Below, in pieces: positions 17,458-23,165 of a DNA stretch of 23,206 nucleotides. The DNA comes from Clostridiales bacterium (lineage in GTDB: Bacteria; Bacillota; Clostridia; Christensenellales; Pumilibacteraceae): NCBI GenBank assembly GCA_029069015.1, contig JAIEBL010000303.1, forward strand, positions 1 through 23,206, read 5' to 3'. Each line of letters begins with the position of its first letter. Position 1 is the first letter of the stretch. The notes beneath the pieces were generated by a model. That model saw only the letters and a list, made by a program, of their open reading frames with translations, was not told where the DNA came from and made no database searches. Both the position numbers and the translations under genes were made by a program.

Positions 17458-18912
17458 ATGGACAGAGTTTTCGACACGAAAGTGCAACTTCTTAAATATA
17501 AAGCGATCAAAGCGGTCATCGAACGGGCGTACAGCGGCAAGCTGGATATGGCGCTCTACGAAATTCCCAAAGAGATTGTCCCCGGTCCGAAGTCGGACAT
17601 GCGGTGCTGCATCTACAAAGAGCGCGCCGTCATCGAAGAGCGCGTGCGCATGGCAATGGGTGGCGACAAGGACAACCCCAACGTCATCGAAACGCTGCCC
17701 GTCGCGTGCGACGAGTGCCCTATGGAAAGCTACTTCGTGACCCCCGCGTGCCGCGGCTGTATCAACCATAAATGTATGGAGGTCTGCCCCAAAGGCGCGA
17801 TATCCATGCAGGGCAAACACGCGGTCATCGATTCGGAAAAATGTATCGAGTGCGGCAAGTGCGCAAAGTCTTGCCCGTACGGCGCGATCATCGAGCTGAC
17901 GCGTCCCTGCGTCAAGGCATGTAAGATCGGCGCGCTCAAAATCAGCGACGAGAAGACGGCGCAGATCGACAACGACAAATGTGTCATGTGCGGCGCGTGC
18001 GTGTACGCTTGCCCGTTCGGCGCGATCGTGGATAAGTCGTACGTGCTCGAATGCGTAGATATCTTGAAGGAAGCGGAAAAGAGTGGTCGCAAGGTGTACG
18101 CGATCATTGCGCCCGCGATCGTCAGCCAGTTCAAGTACGCCAAGATCGAACAGATCGTAGAGGGCATCAAAAAACTCGGCTTCCATCAGGTCATCGAGAC
18201 CGCCATGGGCGCGGACATCACGCTCGGCAAGGAGATGGAAGAACTCAAAGAGCGCGACAAAATGACGACGAGCTGCTGCCCGAGTTTCGTAATGTATATC
18301 GAGCGGCATTTCCCCAAACTCGTGCCGTACATATCGACCACGCCCAGTCCCATGGTGGAAGCGGCATCGCTCATCAAGCGCACGTCGCCCGACAGTAAAG
18401 TCGTGTTTATCGGACCTTGCGCGTCCAAAAAACACGAGTACAAGCTCGAAAAGACGAACGGCGCGGTGGACTGCGTGATCTCCTTCGAGGAGCTGCAAGC
18501 GTTCCTGGACGCGCGCGGTATCGACGTTTCCACGCTTCCCGAAAGCCCCCTGAACAATGCGAGCAAATACGGACGTATCTTTGCAAAGAGCGGCGGCATC
18601 TCGCAGGGCGTAAAAGACCTTAAAGATAAGTACGGGCTTGGCGATAAAGAAGTCTGCCCGCTCGCACTCAACGGATTGGAGCAGATCCGCCTTGCCATGC
18701 TTCGCTTGAATGCGGGAAAACTCCCCGAAAACTTCCTCGAGGGCATGGCTTGCGAGGGCGGGTGCTTAAACGGTCCGCTGTGTCTGAGCCACGGCGACAA
18801 AAATATCGTAGACGTAGACAAGTACGGCGATCAGGCAAAGGAAAAGGACATCGCGGCTACGCTCACCATGTACGAAATGACAAAATCGCTTGAAGAGGGC
18901 GGCAATTTATAA
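17458..18912 (+). CDS. [FeFe] hydrogenase, group B type
   Basis: This 484-residue monomeric hydrogenase of the group B1/B3 type is likely to make or take up H2 in the cytoplasm with ferredoxin-like electron carriers. The N-terminal signature PGPKSDMRCCIYKERA and MAMGGDKDNPNVIE is characteristic. Iron-sulfur motifs follow: C84/C87, C98-x2-C-x4-C-x3-C, C129-C139 and C175-C185. The H-cluster motifs are complete. L1 is TSCCPS, with the relay cysteine C273 and ligand C274. L2 is GPCASKK (C321), and L3 is MACEGGCLNGP (C432, C436). This contrasts with the altered site in the sensory protein two genes upstream. Translation starts behind an unusual hairpin-bridged ribosome site. It lies 13 bases before purF. 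Confidence 0.95.
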   Translation: MDRVFDTKVQLLKYKAIKAVIERAYSGKLDMALYEIPKEIVPGPKSDMRCCIYKERAVIEERVRMAMGGDKDNPNVIETLPVACDECPMESYFVTPACRGCINHKCMEVCPKGAISMQGKHAVIDSEKCIECGKCAKSCPYGAIIELTRPCVKACKIGALKISDEKTAQIDNDKCVMCGACVYACPFGAIVDKSYVLECVDILKEAEKSGRKVYAIIAPAIVSQFKYAKIEQIVEGIKKLGFHQVIETAMGADITLGKEMEELKERDKMTTSCCPSFVMYIERHFPKLVPYISTTPSPMVEAASLIKRTSPDSKVVFIGPCASKKHEYKLEKTNGAVDCVISFEELQAFLDARGIDVSTLPESPLNNASKYGRIFAKSGGISQGVKDLKDKYGLGDKEVCPLALNGLEQIRLAMLRLNAGKLPENFLEGMACEGGCLNGPLCLSHGDKNIVDVDKYGDQAKEKDIAATLTMYEMTKSLEEGGNL

Positions 18913-18925
18913 CGGGAGAATATTT

Positions 18926-20293
18926 ATGCGAAAGTTGAACGAAGAATGCGGCGTACTCGGTATTTACGACAACGACGGCTTGAACGTGGCGCACTACCTC
19001 TATACGGGTCTGTTTGCGTTGCAGCACCGCGGGCAACAGAGTTGCGGTATCGTTACGAATAACGACGCGCATCTCCATCAGATCAAAGATAAGGGGCTCG
19101 TCAGCGAGGTCTTTAACGAGCAGAACCTCGCCACGCTTACGGGTAATATCGGCGTCGCGCACGTTCGGTACGCAAAAGAGGGCGATACTTCGCGCGAGAA
19201 CGCGCAACCGCTCGTGTCGCGGTACTGCAAGGGCAGTATCACGCTCGCCCATAACGGCAGCATTCTGAACGCAAACGAATTGCGGCAGGAACTGGAGAAC
19301 GGTGGCGCGATCTTCCAGTCCACCAACGAAACCGAGGTCATTATGCATCTCATCGCCATTGCCCGCACGCACACGCGGAGCATCGAAGAAGCGGTGCTCG
19401 AAGTCATGGGCAAGATCAAGGGCGCGTACAGCATGGTGCTCATGTCGCCCCGTAAACTTTTGGGTATCCGCGACCCGCAGGGCTTCCGTCCGCTGTGCTT
19501 GGGTAAGCTTGGCAACGACTATATCCTTGCGAGCGAAAGCGTGGCGTTCGACGTGATGCACGCACAGTTTATCCGCGATATCGAACCGGGCGAAGTGGTG
19601 CTCATCGAAGAGGGCGGAAAACTGACGAGCTTTAAAAATCATTGCGGGCAGAAACCCGCGCTCTGCGTGTTCGAATACGTGTACTTTGCGCGTCCCGATT
19701 CGGTCATCGACGGCGTGAGCGTATACAGCGCGCGTATCGAAGCGGGCAAGCAGCTTGCCATCACGCACCCCGTAGAAGCGGACATGGTCATCGGCGTCCC
19801 CGACAGCGGCACGAGCTTTGCGCACGGTTACGCCTTGCAGAGCGGCATTCCCTTCGGCGACGGGCTCATCCGCAACCGCTACACGGGCAGAACGTTCATC
19901 AAGCAGACGCAAGCCGAACGCGAAATGGCGGTTTCCATCAAACTCAACGTGCTTAAAAGTAACGTGGCGGGCAAGCGGATCGTCATGGTAGACGATTCGA
20001 TCGTGCGCGGTACGACCTCCAAAAACCTCATCAAAATGCTCAAAGACGCAGGCGCGACCGAAGTGCATTTGCGCATCGCAAGCCCCGCGTTCCTCTGGCC
20101 GTGCTACTACGGCACGGATATCCCCAGCCGCGAACATCTTTTCGCCGTCCGCTATTCGCAGGAAGAAATGCGCAAACAGCTCGGCGCGGACTCGCTTGGC
20201 TTCCTGCCCCTCGAATCACTCCATAAAATCGGACTCAGAGAAGACTTCGGCTATTGCAGCGCCTGCTTTATGGGCAAATACCCTGTGGAGTAA
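18926..20293 (+). CDS. purF: Amidophosphoribosyltransferase (first step of purine synthesis)
   Basis: PurF makes phosphoribosylamine from PRPP and glutamine. The 455-residue form is the Bacillus type, with a short propeptide (MRKLNEE) before the catalytic nucleophile C8. The glutaminase part shows CGVLGIYD, LQHRGQQSCG and VAHVRYAKEGD. The PRPP site is KRIVMVDDSIVRGTTS, near 350-365. The four structural [4Fe-4S] cysteines are all present: C247, C393, C444 and C447. The start at 18926 follows GGGAG, 13 bases after the group B hydrogenase stop. No other pur genes are visible in the window. Ending a hydrogenase operon is unusual for purF. The shared feature is an oxygen-labile Fe-S cluster; whether that explains the arrangement is unknown. 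Confidence 0.96.
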   Translation: MRKLNEECGVLGIYDNDGLNVAHYLYTGLFALQHRGQQSCGIVTNNDAHLHQIKDKGLVSEVFNEQNLATLTGNIGVAHVRYAKEGDTSRENAQPLVSRYCKGSITLAHNGSILNANELRQELENGGAIFQSTNETEVIMHLIAIARTHTRSIEEAVLEVMGKIKGAYSMVLMSPRKLLGIRDPQGFRPLCLGKLGNDYILASESVAFDVMHAQFIRDIEPGEVVLIEEGGKLTSFKNHCGQKPALCVFEYVYFARPDSVIDGVSVYSARIEAGKQLAITHPVEADMVIGVPDSGTSFAHGYALQSGIPFGDGLIRNRYTGRTFIKQTQAEREMAVSIKLNVLKSNVAGKRIVMVDDSIVRGTTSKNLIKMLKDAGATEVHLRIASPAFLWPCYYGTDIPSREHLFAVRYSQEEMRKQLGADSLGFLPLESLHKIGLREDFGYCSACFMGKYPVE

Positions 20294-20326
20294 AATAAAA
20301 CACTTTATAAAAAAGAAAAACGAGAG

Positions 20327-20357
20327 AAAGACCATGATTGTAAAAACATGGTCTTTT
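20327..20357 (+). terminator. Intrinsic terminator after purF
   Basis: AAAGACCATG (20327-20336) pairs perfectly with CATGGTCTTT (20347-20356), followed by T-rich sequence. It closes the operon that begins at 14264. Confidence 0.92.
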
Positions 20358-20366
20358 ATTCTCTCT

Positions 20367-20583
20367 CCGTCATTCCGAGCATAGTGCCGTAGGCACGACG
20401 AGGAATCCAGCGAAGCGCAAGTAGACTGAAAAGAGTCGTGCGGTTATCCGTACGGCTTCTGTTTTTTCATTGACGCTTTTCTTTGCCGTTTTCTTTGCGG
20501 GGAAGGCAAGAAAGACTACACTTCGCTCCCGCTCGCTAGATTCCTCGTCGCTCCGCTGCGCTTTGCTATACTCGGGATGACGG
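20367..20583. repeat. Composite palindromic repeat, copy 3
   Basis: Runs from CCGTCATTCCGAGC to CTCGGGATGACGG, with inner arms GACGAGGAATCCAGCG and CGCTAGATTCCTCGTC. The central hairpin at 20434-20457 matches those of copies 1 and 2 in place. It lacks the extra right-hand block those copies share. Confidence 0.82.
20434..20457 (+). terminator. Terminator-like hairpin inside repeat copy 3
   Basis: AGTCGTGCGG pairs with CCGTACGGCT over ten pairs (two G-T) around TTAT. TCTG and six T follow. It would act as a backup behind the purF terminator. Confidence 0.6.
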
Positions 20584-20654
20584 AACATGAGAATAGCGCA
20601 TGCTACCGCAATCATAGGGTTTTCCCTCGGGGCGAAATGACAAGGCGTCGCTTT

Positions 20655-20740
20655 CGTCATCTCGGAGACAACTTTTTGTTGAAGCAATCCAGAAGAGAAA
20701 GCAAGTTGAGGGGCTGGGCTACTTCGCTCGCAATGATGAG
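20655..20740. repeat. Degenerate palindromic repeat of the CATTGCGAG type
   Basis: CGTCATCTCGGAG and GAAGCAATCCAGA on the left, and TACTTCGCTCGCAATGATG on the right, match the element at 13862-13954 with decay. It holds no gene. Confidence 0.55.
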
Positions 20741-20790
20741 GGAGGTGGATAGCGCTACTTTATAATAAAAAGTGAATAGGTAAAAGTCAG

Positions 20791-20858: not shown

Positions 20859-20887
20859 TTGACTTTTCTCTGCAAATGCAGTATACT
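20859..20887 (+). promoter_or_regulatory. Promoter of the structured leader RNA
   Basis: TTGACT at 20859-20864 and TATACT at 20882-20887, spaced 17 bases. The spacer ends in the palindrome CTGCA-AA-TGCAG (20870-20881), a possible operator. The expected start falls at about 20894, exactly the first base of the closing stem of the RNA. Confidence 0.85.
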
Positions 20888-20893
20888 AACTAT

Positions 20894-21055
20894 GCCAAAC
20901 AAACTTTACAACCCGAATTGAGGAGTGCGGGATTTTTTATACCCATTTTAAAAAAGTTCTATTTGCATATACTTTTAGAATTGGCAAAAATGCAAATTCC
21001 ATTTATGTATGTGCAGAATAGAGAGTGTTTCCGTACTACGTAAAGTTTGTTTGGC
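20894..21055 (+). ncRNA. Structured AU-rich leader or small RNA, family not recognised
   Basis: Sixteen bases at 20894-20909 are perfectly complementary to 21040-21055 and close a 162-nt RNA (P1). Inside, 20957-20972 pairs with 21007-21023 over 16 pairs, with one bulged G and two G-U pairs (P2). Within P2, GAATTG at 20978 pairs with CAAATTC at 20993-20999, with one bulged A (P3). The left internal loop holds CCCG/CGGG (20912-20931). A competing pairing, ATTTGCAT (20961-20968) with ATGCAAAT (20990-20997), would break P2. No protein frame is convincing. It matches no riboswitch I know; a 6S-like rod is possible. Confidence 0.6.
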
Positions 21056-21078
21056 GACAATCGGAGTTTGCGTTTTTC

Positions 21079-21114
21079 GTGCGCTGACTTTCGGTTGGCG
21101 CACTTTTTAATTTT
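21079..21114 (+). terminator. Terminator between the leader RNA and the lipoprotein gene
   Basis: GTGCGCTGAC (21079-21088) pairs with GTTGGCGCAC (21094-21103) over ten pairs (two G-T) around TTTCG, followed by TTTTTAATTTT. The ribosome site ACGGAGG begins at the very next base (21115). The lipoprotein gene can be read from the upstream promoter only by passing this terminator. Confidence 0.85.
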
Positions 21115-21128
21115 ACGGAGGAATCGTT

Positions 21129-23165
21129 ATGAAAAGGAAGGTTTTACGTACGCTTTTGCTTTGCCTTGTGTTGTCGCTTGTCGGGTTTGCGTTTATCGCT
21201 TGCGGCGATAAGAGCGACGGGAACCCTTGTGCGGCGGGGCATTCGTACGACGCGGACGGCGTATGCACCGTTTGCAGATACAGCCCATATACGCAGGGAT
21301 TGGAGTTCGAGTTGAACGATGACGGCGCGTCGTATACCGTTATGGGCAAAGGGACGGCTACGGGGCAAGCGCTCGTTATTCCCGAAAAGTATCACGGCTT
21401 GCCCGTTACGGCGATTGCCGAAATGGCATTTTCAATACGCCCCGGTAACGAAAACGACTTTGAGCGTTTAGATATATCGGATTCGGTTACGCATATCGGC
21501 GCGTACGCATTCCAGGGTTGTCACATGCTGATGAGCGTGCGTATCGGGAGCGGCGTAACGAGTATCGGAGAGAGAGCGTTCGGCGGTTGTAGCTTTTTGG
21601 AGAGCATAACCGTAGACGACAACAACGCGACGTATCACAGCACAGGTAATTGCGTGATCGAAACGGCGACCAAAACGTTGGTCGCGGGTTGCAAAGCCAG
21701 CGTGATCCCCTCGGACGGCAGCGTCACGACGATCGGCACGCGCGTATTTGAAAACGACCTCGGGTTAACAAGTATCGTCATACCGCAAGGTGTTACGAGT
21801 ATCGGAGATCACGCATTCGGGTCTTGCTTTGCCTTGGAGAGCGTCACGCTCGGTAGCAGCGTTACGAGTATCGGCGAAAGTGCGTTCAACGGTTGCAAGC
21901 TGAGAAGCATAGAGCTTCCGCAGTCGCTTCTGAGTATCGGAAGCGGAGCGTTTTCGTCTTGCGGCGGGCTGACGAGCGTAACGATCCCGCAGTCGGTCAC
22001 GACGATCGGCAGCGGCGTGTTTTCCGGTTGTGACGGTTTAACGGTATATTGCGAAGCAAGCACAAAGCCGAGCGATTGGGACACCGAATGGAACAACAAT
22101 AATTGCCCCGTCATATGGGACTCTAAGAACAACGATAAAGACGAAGACGGCTATGCGTATGCGGAGACAGACGGTTTGCGCTATCGCTTCAAAGACGGGG
22201 AAGCAACCGTAATAAAGAGGAGCGGTATCAGCGGAGAGGCCACCGTGCCGGCAAGCGTGCTGTATAAGGACGAAAGCTACGCCGTCAAGAGTATCGGAGA
22301 GCGTGCATTTAAGTTGAGTACCGGCTTAACGGGCATTAAGATCGGTAGTAGCGTCGTGCGTATCGAGAAAGAGGCGTTTTACGGTTGCAATAACGTAAAA
22401 AACATAGAGCTTCCGTCCTCGCTCTCGCGGATCGGAGACAGAGCTTTCTACGAATGCCGTAGTTTAACGAGTATGGTCGTACCAACTAGTGTAGGGACGA
22501 TCGGAACGAACGTGTTCTACGGGTGTGAATGCTTAACGCTCTATTGCGAGGCAGGATCGCGGCCGGGCAGCTGGTATCTCAAATGGCACAACGATTGCCC
22601 CGTGGTATGGGATTGCGAAAATAACGACGAAGACGAAGACGGCTATGCGTATGCGATCATAGGCGGCTTGCGGTACAGCTTCAAAGACGAGATGGCAACC
22701 GTGTTGCGGCAAGTGCGTGGCGGCGAGTTCGGCGAATTGACGATTCCGCAAACCGTTTCGTATAAGGACAAAAATTATACCGTATTGAGCATCGCGGATA
22801 GCGCGTTTTATCAGCAGAGCAGCTTGAAGTCGATTACGCTACCCAATAGCGTCATGACGATTTTTGCGAATGCGTTCTACGGTTGTACGAATTTGAAGAG
22901 CGTCACGCTGTCGGATCGCTTAGAGTTTATCGGTATCGGTGCGTTCGAAAATTGCAGTGTGCTTACGAGCATTACGATCCCGCAAGGCGTTGAGAATCTT
23001 TGGACCAGGATGTTCTACGGTTGCAGAAGCTTAAAGAGCGTCACGATCCCGAGCAGCGTAACGCGCGTCGATAACAGCGTGTTTGAAAATTGCAGCGCCC
23101 TTGAGAGTATAACGTATGAAGGAACGAAAGCAGAGTGGGGAACCGTTACGAAGGGAAGCGGCTGA
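21129..23165 (+). CDS. BspA-type leucine-rich-repeat surface lipoprotein, frameshifted near its 3' end
   Basis: The 678-codon frame begins with a lipoprotein signal peptide: MKRKVLRTLLL, a hydrophobic core and FIAC with the lipidated C25. A small cysteine motif (CAAGHSYDADGVCTVC) follows, then repeats of the LRR_5/BspA kind with cores such as SIGERAF..C..L.SI.. and VTSIG. A unit of about 190 residues is duplicated: YCEASTKPSDW, CPVIWDSKNNDKDEDGYAYA and YRFKDGEATV in the first copy correspond to YCEAGSRPGSW, CPVVWDCENNDEDEDGYAYA and YSFKDEMATV in the second. Such proteins sit on the cell surface and may bind host or other cells. ACGGAGG sets the start. The frame stops at TGA (23163-23165) where a tryptophan is expected (see the next entry). 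Confidence 0.9.
   Translation: MKRKVLRTLLLCLVLSLVGFAFIACGDKSDGNPCAAGHSYDADGVCTVCRYSPYTQGLEFELNDDGASYTVMGKGTATGQALVIPEKYHGLPVTAIAEMAFSIRPGNENDFERLDISDSVTHIGAYAFQGCHMLMSVRIGSGVTSIGERAFGGCSFLESITVDDNNATYHSTGNCVIETATKTLVAGCKASVIPSDGSVTTIGTRVFENDLGLTSIVIPQGVTSIGDHAFGSCFALESVTLGSSVTSIGESAFNGCKLRSIELPQSLLSIGSGAFSSCGGLTSVTIPQSVTTIGSGVFSGCDGLTVYCEASTKPSDWDTEWNNNNCPVIWDSKNNDKDEDGYAYAETDGLRYRFKDGEATVIKRSGISGEATVPASVLYKDESYAVKSIGERAFKLSTGLTGIKIGSSVVRIEKEAFYGCNNVKNIELPSSLSRIGDRAFYECRSLTSMVVPTSVGTIGTNVFYGCECLTLYCEAGSRPGSWYLKWHNDCPVVWDCENNDEDEDGYAYAIIGGLRYSFKDEMATVLRQVRGGEFGELTIPQTVSYKDKNYTVLSIADSAFYQQSSLKSITLPNSVMTIFANAFYGCTNLKSVTLSDRLEFIGIGAFENCSVLTSITIPQGVENLWTRMFYGCRSLKSVTIPSSVTRVDNSVFENCSALESITYEGTKAEWGTVTKGSG

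Follow-up and report, generated by a model that had tools for sequence, protein, structure and literature searches.

A rod-shaped RNA before a BspA-type lipoprotein gene as a probable member of a large attenuator family in Clostridia

In a contig of a Clostridiales bacterium (assembly GCA_029069015.1, contig JAIEBL010000303.1, positions 1 to 23,206), the RNA that starts near position 20894 is probably the leader of a BspA-type lipoprotein gene and, judging from sequence comparison, one of a large family of RNAs that attenuate transcription in cis. This stretch of 23,206 nucleotides, called the window below, comes from a fragmented genome (407 contigs, 1.63 Mb). A first-pass annotation had described there an unassigned structured RNA closed by a perfect 16-bp stem; the observation is confirmed, and it understates the case. 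The rod of 162 nt that it delimited stands, but the functional unit extends past the closing stem P1 through an intrinsic terminator, T2, to about 21108. Comparison among relatives supports the position of the promoter, the rod, P1, P4, P5, T2 and the complementarity of the antiterminator AT, together with covariation, as well as the energy balance, the ORF in register and the bias towards surface proteins. The parts come in the order promoter, rod of about 40 bp, short linker, intrinsic terminator, ribosome site and ORF.

18890-20293: glutamine amidotransferase/phosphoribosyltransferase gene, the upstream neighbour of the leader
20859-20887, + strand: promoter with -35 TTGACT (20859-20864), 17-nt spacer and -10 TATACT (20882-20887), from a consensus scan
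20894-20909, + strand: 5' strand of P1, GCCAAACAAACTTTAC, at or adjoining +1; perfect 16-bp complement of 21040-21055
20924-20932, + strand: 5' strand of a 9-bp rod helix in the predicted fold, partner 21029-21037
20933-20955, + strand: side hairpin (20933-20939 with 20949-20955), from the predicted fold only
20957-20972, + strand: 5' strand of a rod helix of 16 bp with one bulge in the predicted fold, partner 21007-21023 (P2 of the first-pass annotation)
20978-20999, + strand: P4, apical hairpin of the predicted fold (20978-20986 with 20991-20999), with double changes in relatives
20986-21000, + strand: X, putative switching strand AAAAATGCAAATTCC, either loop and 3' arm of P4 or the linker's partner in P5; complementary to 21063-21077
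21040-21055, + strand: 3' strand of P1, exact reverse complement of the 5' strand, from sequence and fold
21056-21078, + strand: linker, predicted to pair through 21063-21077 with X (P5) or through 21058-21073 with 21081-21097 (AT), from fold, covariation and controls
21079-21108, + strand: T2, intrinsic terminator with an 11-bp stem (21079-21089/21093-21103) and a U-run (21104-21108), from a scan and pairing in relatives
21117-21121, + strand: ribosome-binding site GGAGG of the downstream gene, from the sequence
21129-23165, + strand: BspA-type leucine-rich-repeat gene of 678 aa with a lipoprotein-like start (Pfam LRR_5, E 1.1e-101; N-terminus read)

Between the amidotransferase gene and the promoter (20320-20760), repeated palindromic pieces of the kind CATTCCGAG...GGAATCC / AGCAATCC are seen by eye.

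The promoter and the rod

The promoter had been said to set the start of transcription at the first base of the closing stem; a predicted +1 near 20894 fits, because the -10 of the TTGACT-17-TATACT promoter ends at 20887. Relatives have the same register: in 143 of 151 elements a -10-like hexamer ends 5-7 nt ahead of P1, as against 90 of 730 random positions upstream. A -35-like start at a spacing of 16-19 nt accompanies 140 of these 143. The inner helix of 16 pairs was also recovered, with one bulge, but P1 additionally encloses a 9-bp helix, a side hairpin and an apical hairpin. The fold energy of the 162 nt is -55.3 kcal/mol, a value reached by none of 200 dinucleotide shuffles (z -6.8), and the RNA of 215 nt has a z of -6.4. 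The antisense strand of the 162 nt folds almost equally well (z -6.5), as is expected from the rod shape. The minimum free energy (MFE) structure of the whole 215-nt RNA of the window consists of the rod and T2, with AT absent.

Most members of the main group were gathered by a pattern of the linker that allowed no indels. From 151 elements, 145 were aligned, and 72 of these (<70% identity, good P1) make up the main alignment; the alignment of distant relatives holds 49 of 61 elements, near-duplicates, L203, L215 and both L276 having been removed by hand (labels beginning with L, G and C are handles for loci, genomes and contigs). In the 72 elements, aligned blind to structure, 99.2% of the P1 cells are paired over 11 pairs, eight of which are doubly changed, while the lower five pairs are weaker (71.8% paired). 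In the distant relatives, P1 is 97.2% paired and all 12 of its 12 pairs are doubly changed. These covariation counts are raw, kinship being taken into account for one column pair only (275-314, below). For the whole structure, none of 500 shuffles reaches any of the five measures in the main alignment, and sliding the partners lowers pairing to 32-47%. The loss of P1 and P2 pairing in relatives, named beforehand as what would speak against the RNA, is not seen: P1 is kept, and the rod interior encloses X with a median of 25 pairs as against 9.1 with shuffled interiors, the native count being higher in all of the 205 elements compared (from 207, two with no located X being left out). Between P1 and the tip, the shape of the rod is conserved and its sequence is not. 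Columns with one base in at least 85% of the 72 elements lie in P1, P4 and its loop, X, the linker, T2 and the U-run, plus the isolated columns 39 and 123. No conserved unpaired core was seen in this alignment outside the switch strands, which makes a classical aptamer less likely.

Strand X, the linker and the terminator

In the predicted switch, X (AAAAAUGCAAAUUCC, 20986-21000) has two partners: it pairs within P4, and a 15-bp complement to it lies in the linker (GGAGUUUGCGUUUUU, 21063-21077). P4 is 89.3% paired, and all seven of its seven aligned pairs are changed on both sides in relatives. P5 is paired in 98.0% of cells in the 72 main-group elements, but only two of its 15 pairs are doubly changed, the near-invariance of the linker in this group being partly due to selection by the linker pattern. 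In the distant relatives, in which X and the linker differ widely, P5 is 92.0% paired with seven of 14 pairs doubly changed (49 aligned). In the 19 rows of the main alignment that were found by blastn rather than by the linker pattern, 281 of 285 P5 cells are paired. Swapping X and linker between distant elements weakens the duplex: none of 5000 permutations is as low as the native X:linker pairing (n=60). One distant element, L203, is essentially without P5 (-2.1 kcal/mol). Where P4 is broken, the change lies in the 5' arm only in 42 cells, in the 3' arm (X) only in seven and in both arms in five; substitutions in the X arm comprise 35 transitions and four transversions, those in the 5' arm 37 and 32. 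This skew of the breaks and the transition bias on X suggest that X is held by a second partner. With the rod present, P5 would be a pseudoknot.

The first five stem pairs of T2 are 99.4% paired in the 72 aligned elements. AT would be formed by the linker with the 5' arm, the loop and the first 3' bases of T2; in the main group it overlaps the top of T2, so that the lower part of the T2 stem could form even so. Over nine AT pairs, two of them doubly changed, 97.5% of cells are paired in the alignment of 72 elements, and 169 of 171 cells are paired in the 19 rows outside the linker pattern. At the AT column pair 275-314, AU is found 31 times, UA 23, UG 10 and GU once, with 6 of 71 unpaired; on a tree made from the rod only, column 275 (linker side) changed at least 6 times and column 314 (T2 side) at least 18 times. 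Three of the five AT measures beat all shuffles; the numbers of AT pairs with a double change and with further pair types were no better than in shuffles (320 and 165 of 500).

Energies were compared over 147 main-group and 61 distant elements, one of which (L211) was unparsed. Over 152 unique combinations, the linker:T2 duplex has an energy of -16.5 in native, -13.3 in swapped and -9.9 in shuffled form; none of 5000 permutations is as low, also within the main (96) and the distant (56) groups, and in 139 of the 152 combinations the native duplex is lower in energy than the mean of its swapped versions. The median difference between the AT-type fold, defined here as the best fold that keeps the last 7 nt of T2 unpaired, and T2 is 0.0 kcal/mol for native linkers (207 elements), 2.3 for swapped and 8.2 for shuffled ones, and swapped linkers alone already give low AT energies. 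At least six linker-T2 pairs are present in 206 of 207 native and 173 of 207 shuffled cases, so that pair counts separate the two poorly. In the window, linker and terminator without the U-run give -16.6 kcal/mol for the AT fold and -15.3 for T2 alone; once the U-run is included, the MFE (-17.3 kcal/mol) belongs to the T2 form. The distance from linker to U-run is 17 nt in 147 of 147 main-group elements, which is partly selection, and 16-22 nt in 60 distant ones. A U-run was found in 148 of 151 elements, and in these it ends 50-56 nt past P1, part of this distance having been fixed by the collecting pattern. Judged by sequence comparison and energies, the 5' leader carries a predicted expression platform like that of a riboswitch, in which antiterminator and terminator exclude each other.

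Shared strands link P4, P5, AT and T2 into a chain (P4 arm - X - linker - T2), so P4 with AT excludes P5 with T2. Transcription would start at the foot of the rod of about 40 bp (P1 and the inner helices), whose tip would present X paired in P4. In the stop state, the linker would invade X to form P5, leaving T2 free to fold, and transcription would end. In the read-on state, the linker would form AT with T2, taking up its 5' arm, its loop and the first bases of its 3' arm, so that T2 is blocked and the gene is read. During synthesis, P4 and the rod would presumably form first, after which the emerging linker would take X or await the 5' arm of T2; the outcome would thus hang on the stability of P4 and on polymerase speed, and a ligand, a protein, temperature or pausing might therefore influence it. 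Expression would be set by whatever moves X between P4 and P5, or by the speed of the polymerase past the linker. From the sequence, we infer that the leader is transcribed, that AT lowers termination and which state is the default. A homodimer formed in trans through X and the linker may also be considered; pairing in cis is the simpler account of the copy-by-copy fit.

Downstream genes and distribution

An ORF of at least 60 aa with an SD sequence begins 62-95 nt past P1 in 91 of the 137 elements used for this count (from 151), as against 36 of 685 positions chosen at random and 5 of 132 cases in the direction that leads away from the promoter. With the ORF start so near to T2, there would be hardly any room between them for a promoter of the gene's own. 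Control of surface proteins by a leader was the best of three guesses in the first-pass annotation, and it holds in part: a signal-peptide-like start is found in 69 of 123 downstream ORFs (123 of 151 were used) versus 66 of 372 control ORFs taken from these loci (Fisher 2e-15), and such a start with a lipobox in 36 of 123 versus 13 of 372 (Fisher 4e-14), as called by simple rules rather than a trained predictor, but nearly half of the downstream ORFs are without a signal-peptide-like start. Their median length is 260 aa, some being cut by contig ends, and many targets are single genes. Pfam matches in the 123 ORFs include LRR_5 (15), the Listeria-Bacteroides repeat (7), AMP-binding (4) and singletons such as an EcoRI-type methylase. 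PADLOC matches in the same ORFs are few (UzuA 2, MTase_II 1, DpdF 1), and hence a pure defence theme is not supported. The downstream ORFs differ from copy to copy, with no common pathway apparent. Loci L254, L247 and L272 have, by eye, an AbrB/SpoVT-like ORF of about 79-80 aa after the element and no surface protein, possibly a regulator under the same switch. Some copies lack a good near ORF, L198 and L200 among them; the stretch common to these two downstream consists, by eye, of an antisense-tRNA-like fragment and a strong hairpin.

The window's own genome has three copies; the two further, near-complete ones, found by blastn at C241 and C90, each stand before a lipoprotein-like ORF. Matches by blastn occur in 34 of 101 near genomes, own included. 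A covariance model, R1, built from the 72 elements of <70% identity, likewise matches at E<=0.001 in 34 of the 101 near genomes, and in 89 of the 391 genomes sampled from the class (own included), with at most six candidates scored per genome and rough model E-values. Among class genomes of good quality, 59 of 317 match. In a phylum sample whose class share is not listed in full, the own genome is the sole match among 299. In one set of 30 hits, seven (E 0.0005-0.009) cover real elements on the antisense strand; a match near E 0.001 can therefore be an artefact of the palindrome. Counts per genome range from 3 to 20 in 20 genomes picked for having matches; G652 has 20, of which 12 were confirmed as loci. 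At order level, 41 of 396 genomes match the linker pattern with up to three mismatches, and a reversed control pattern matches none. At least 118 stretches of public genome contigs matched the linker pattern; among the 80 matches listed, the titles are Clostridia, Oscillospiraceae, Ruminococcus and similar, mostly MAGs. A record of Pumilibacter intestinalis carries a copy (L064).

In another set of hits, 42 of 45 were inspected; L199 and L200 (= L239, L252), L212 (P1 broken, by eye) and one L271 unit (a near-copy of L262) were not carried over. Complete units with their own promoters stand in tandem in L261 and L271, and further close pairs occur elsewhere; the close pairs on the same strand are L261:247-653, L271:1202-1580 (minus), G670:C80:15654-16040, G072:C37:164-598 and G785:C33:11059-11509. 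In L261 and L271, transcription from the first unit could reach the gene only past two terminators.

Three viral contigs of IMG/VR share an identical element (L281:2767-2974; L280; L283) and a fourth carries another (L282:5364-5575), which suggests that the element rides on phage-like DNA too. A stricter pattern gave no match in IMG/VR, and no element was found in the plasmids scanned. In L281 and L282, the element stands before an ORF without a known role, close to phage terminase genes, as though accessory genes carried by phages made use of this leader as well. It is also present at 338-535 of L279 (MT835503.1), an unverified 'Bacteriophage sp.' record that may be a bacterial contig; judged by eye, the ORFs after it resemble an adenine methyltransferase of EcoRI type, a protein with an HNH end and the beginning of a MATE-like transporter.

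Competing explanations and comparison with known systems

A promoter, a closed 5' end and a strong terminator make up a complete small-RNA gene, and with copies lacking a near ORF and complete units in tandem, the element might be taken for a stand-alone, trans-acting RNA of about 215 nt, 6S-like or other, from which the next gene is reached by leaky termination only. This is unlikely, as ORFs in register are far above controls and differ between copies, and the mutual fit of X, linker and T2 is better inside one copy than across copies, which points to action in cis. The 6S-like form of it, proposed in the first-pass annotation, fails on the presence of a separate 6S match above the Rfam cut-off in the own genome (G000:C189:3851-4073, its sole RF00013 match above that cut-off, outside the window) and in three other genomes searched. 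An ordinary metabolite riboswitch, in which the rod would hold an aptamer and the P5/AT/T2 chain would serve as expression platform, would account for a platform of riboswitch type and for many copies per genome before different genes; yet it is improbable in that the alignment has no conserved unpaired core, only columns 39 and 123 standing isolated outside the switch parts, P1 and U-run, the rod interiors vary while remaining paired, and the downstream genes are without an apparent common pathway. The earlier suggestion of a new riboswitch class may still hold: a predicted expression platform is present, but the conserved positions lie in P1, P4 and its loop, X, the linker and the terminator, with two isolated columns besides.

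The put and EAR elements are RNA families of processive antitermination. An RNA acting likewise on RNA polymerase, with the near-constant distance to T2 (50-56 nt past P1 to the end of the U-run in 148 of 151 elements, partly fixed by the collecting pattern) as its reach, is very improbable, the balanced linker:T2 pairing being a simpler account of the arrangement and many targets being single genes of modest length. Hardly tenable is a miniature transposon (MITE) with P1 as its terminal inverted repeat. It would explain inverted repeats at both ends and several copies per genome, but the promoter lies outside P1 at a fixed distance (143 of 151), as do the terminator and the ORF start, and P1 is not constant, changing by compensation with G-U pairs included. 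A 12-mer is shared by at most 4 of the 146 upstream flanks and at most 3 of the 101 downstream ones, and no target-site duplication is visible by eye around the element of the window, as the first-pass annotation had already noted in disfavouring a transposon. An integron attC site or gene cassette was rejected because no 12-mer is common to more than a few flanks, and a leader ORF from the conserved ATG in X because this ATG is missing, by eye, in several relatives.

The cis-acting attenuator is thus preferred. If it is right, these leaders are a widespread class of RNA regulators, with matches in 89 of 391 class genomes and no Rfam 15 family for them among the loci that were scanned; its switching logic would be readable from sequence, and it would offer a handle on control of the surface repertoire (BspA-type repeats and lipoproteins meeting the host) in mostly uncultured gut Clostridia. 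The question is then what a rod without a conserved core senses. Tentatively, and with more doubt than confidence, the element may be a portable, gene-agnostic attenuator with no sequence-defined aptamer, in which the state of the long, sequence-free rod is sensed through its folding speed or through a general factor that binds double strands or pauses the polymerase; one common signal could then jointly set as many as about 20 genes in a genome (surface, restriction-modification and phage-borne ones) across much of Clostridia.

That the structured RNA is unassigned, as first stated, agrees with Rfam 15: no family reaches its gathering score in the window, where four hits at E<=10 lie far below their cut-offs; none does so in 20 loci of relatives apart from tRNA genes, and in 19 loci of distant relatives only tRNA is found at E<=0.01. 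In the literature searched, which included PMC8040213, PMC11109978 and PMC8632094 among the papers queried by term, no description of this leader RNA was found.

Among known systems, type III toxin-antitoxin (ToxIN) loci have the same order of promoter, structured RNA, terminator and ORF. The ORFs downstream of this leader, in contrast, are of many families, and no ToxN-type toxin is among the 25 listed of the 42 Pfam families in the 123 downstream ORFs. 6S RNA (RF00013) is a long rod-like RNA closed by a terminal stem and of similar size; this leader differs from it in that the window has no RF00013 match and that many copies are tied to downstream genes. The closest likeness is to trp-type leaders, which are four-strand amino-acid attenuators, and to transcription-attenuating riboswitches, both having a chain of exclusive helices in which an antiterminator competes with a terminator before the ribosome site. 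Unlike in these, no conserved ligand core is seen and no leader peptide was noticed, the rod starts at +1 and is free in sequence, and many targets are accessory surface genes. So far qualifying neither by an aptamer nor by a leader peptide, the leader would, by analogy, work like a riboswitch-type or trp-type attenuator.
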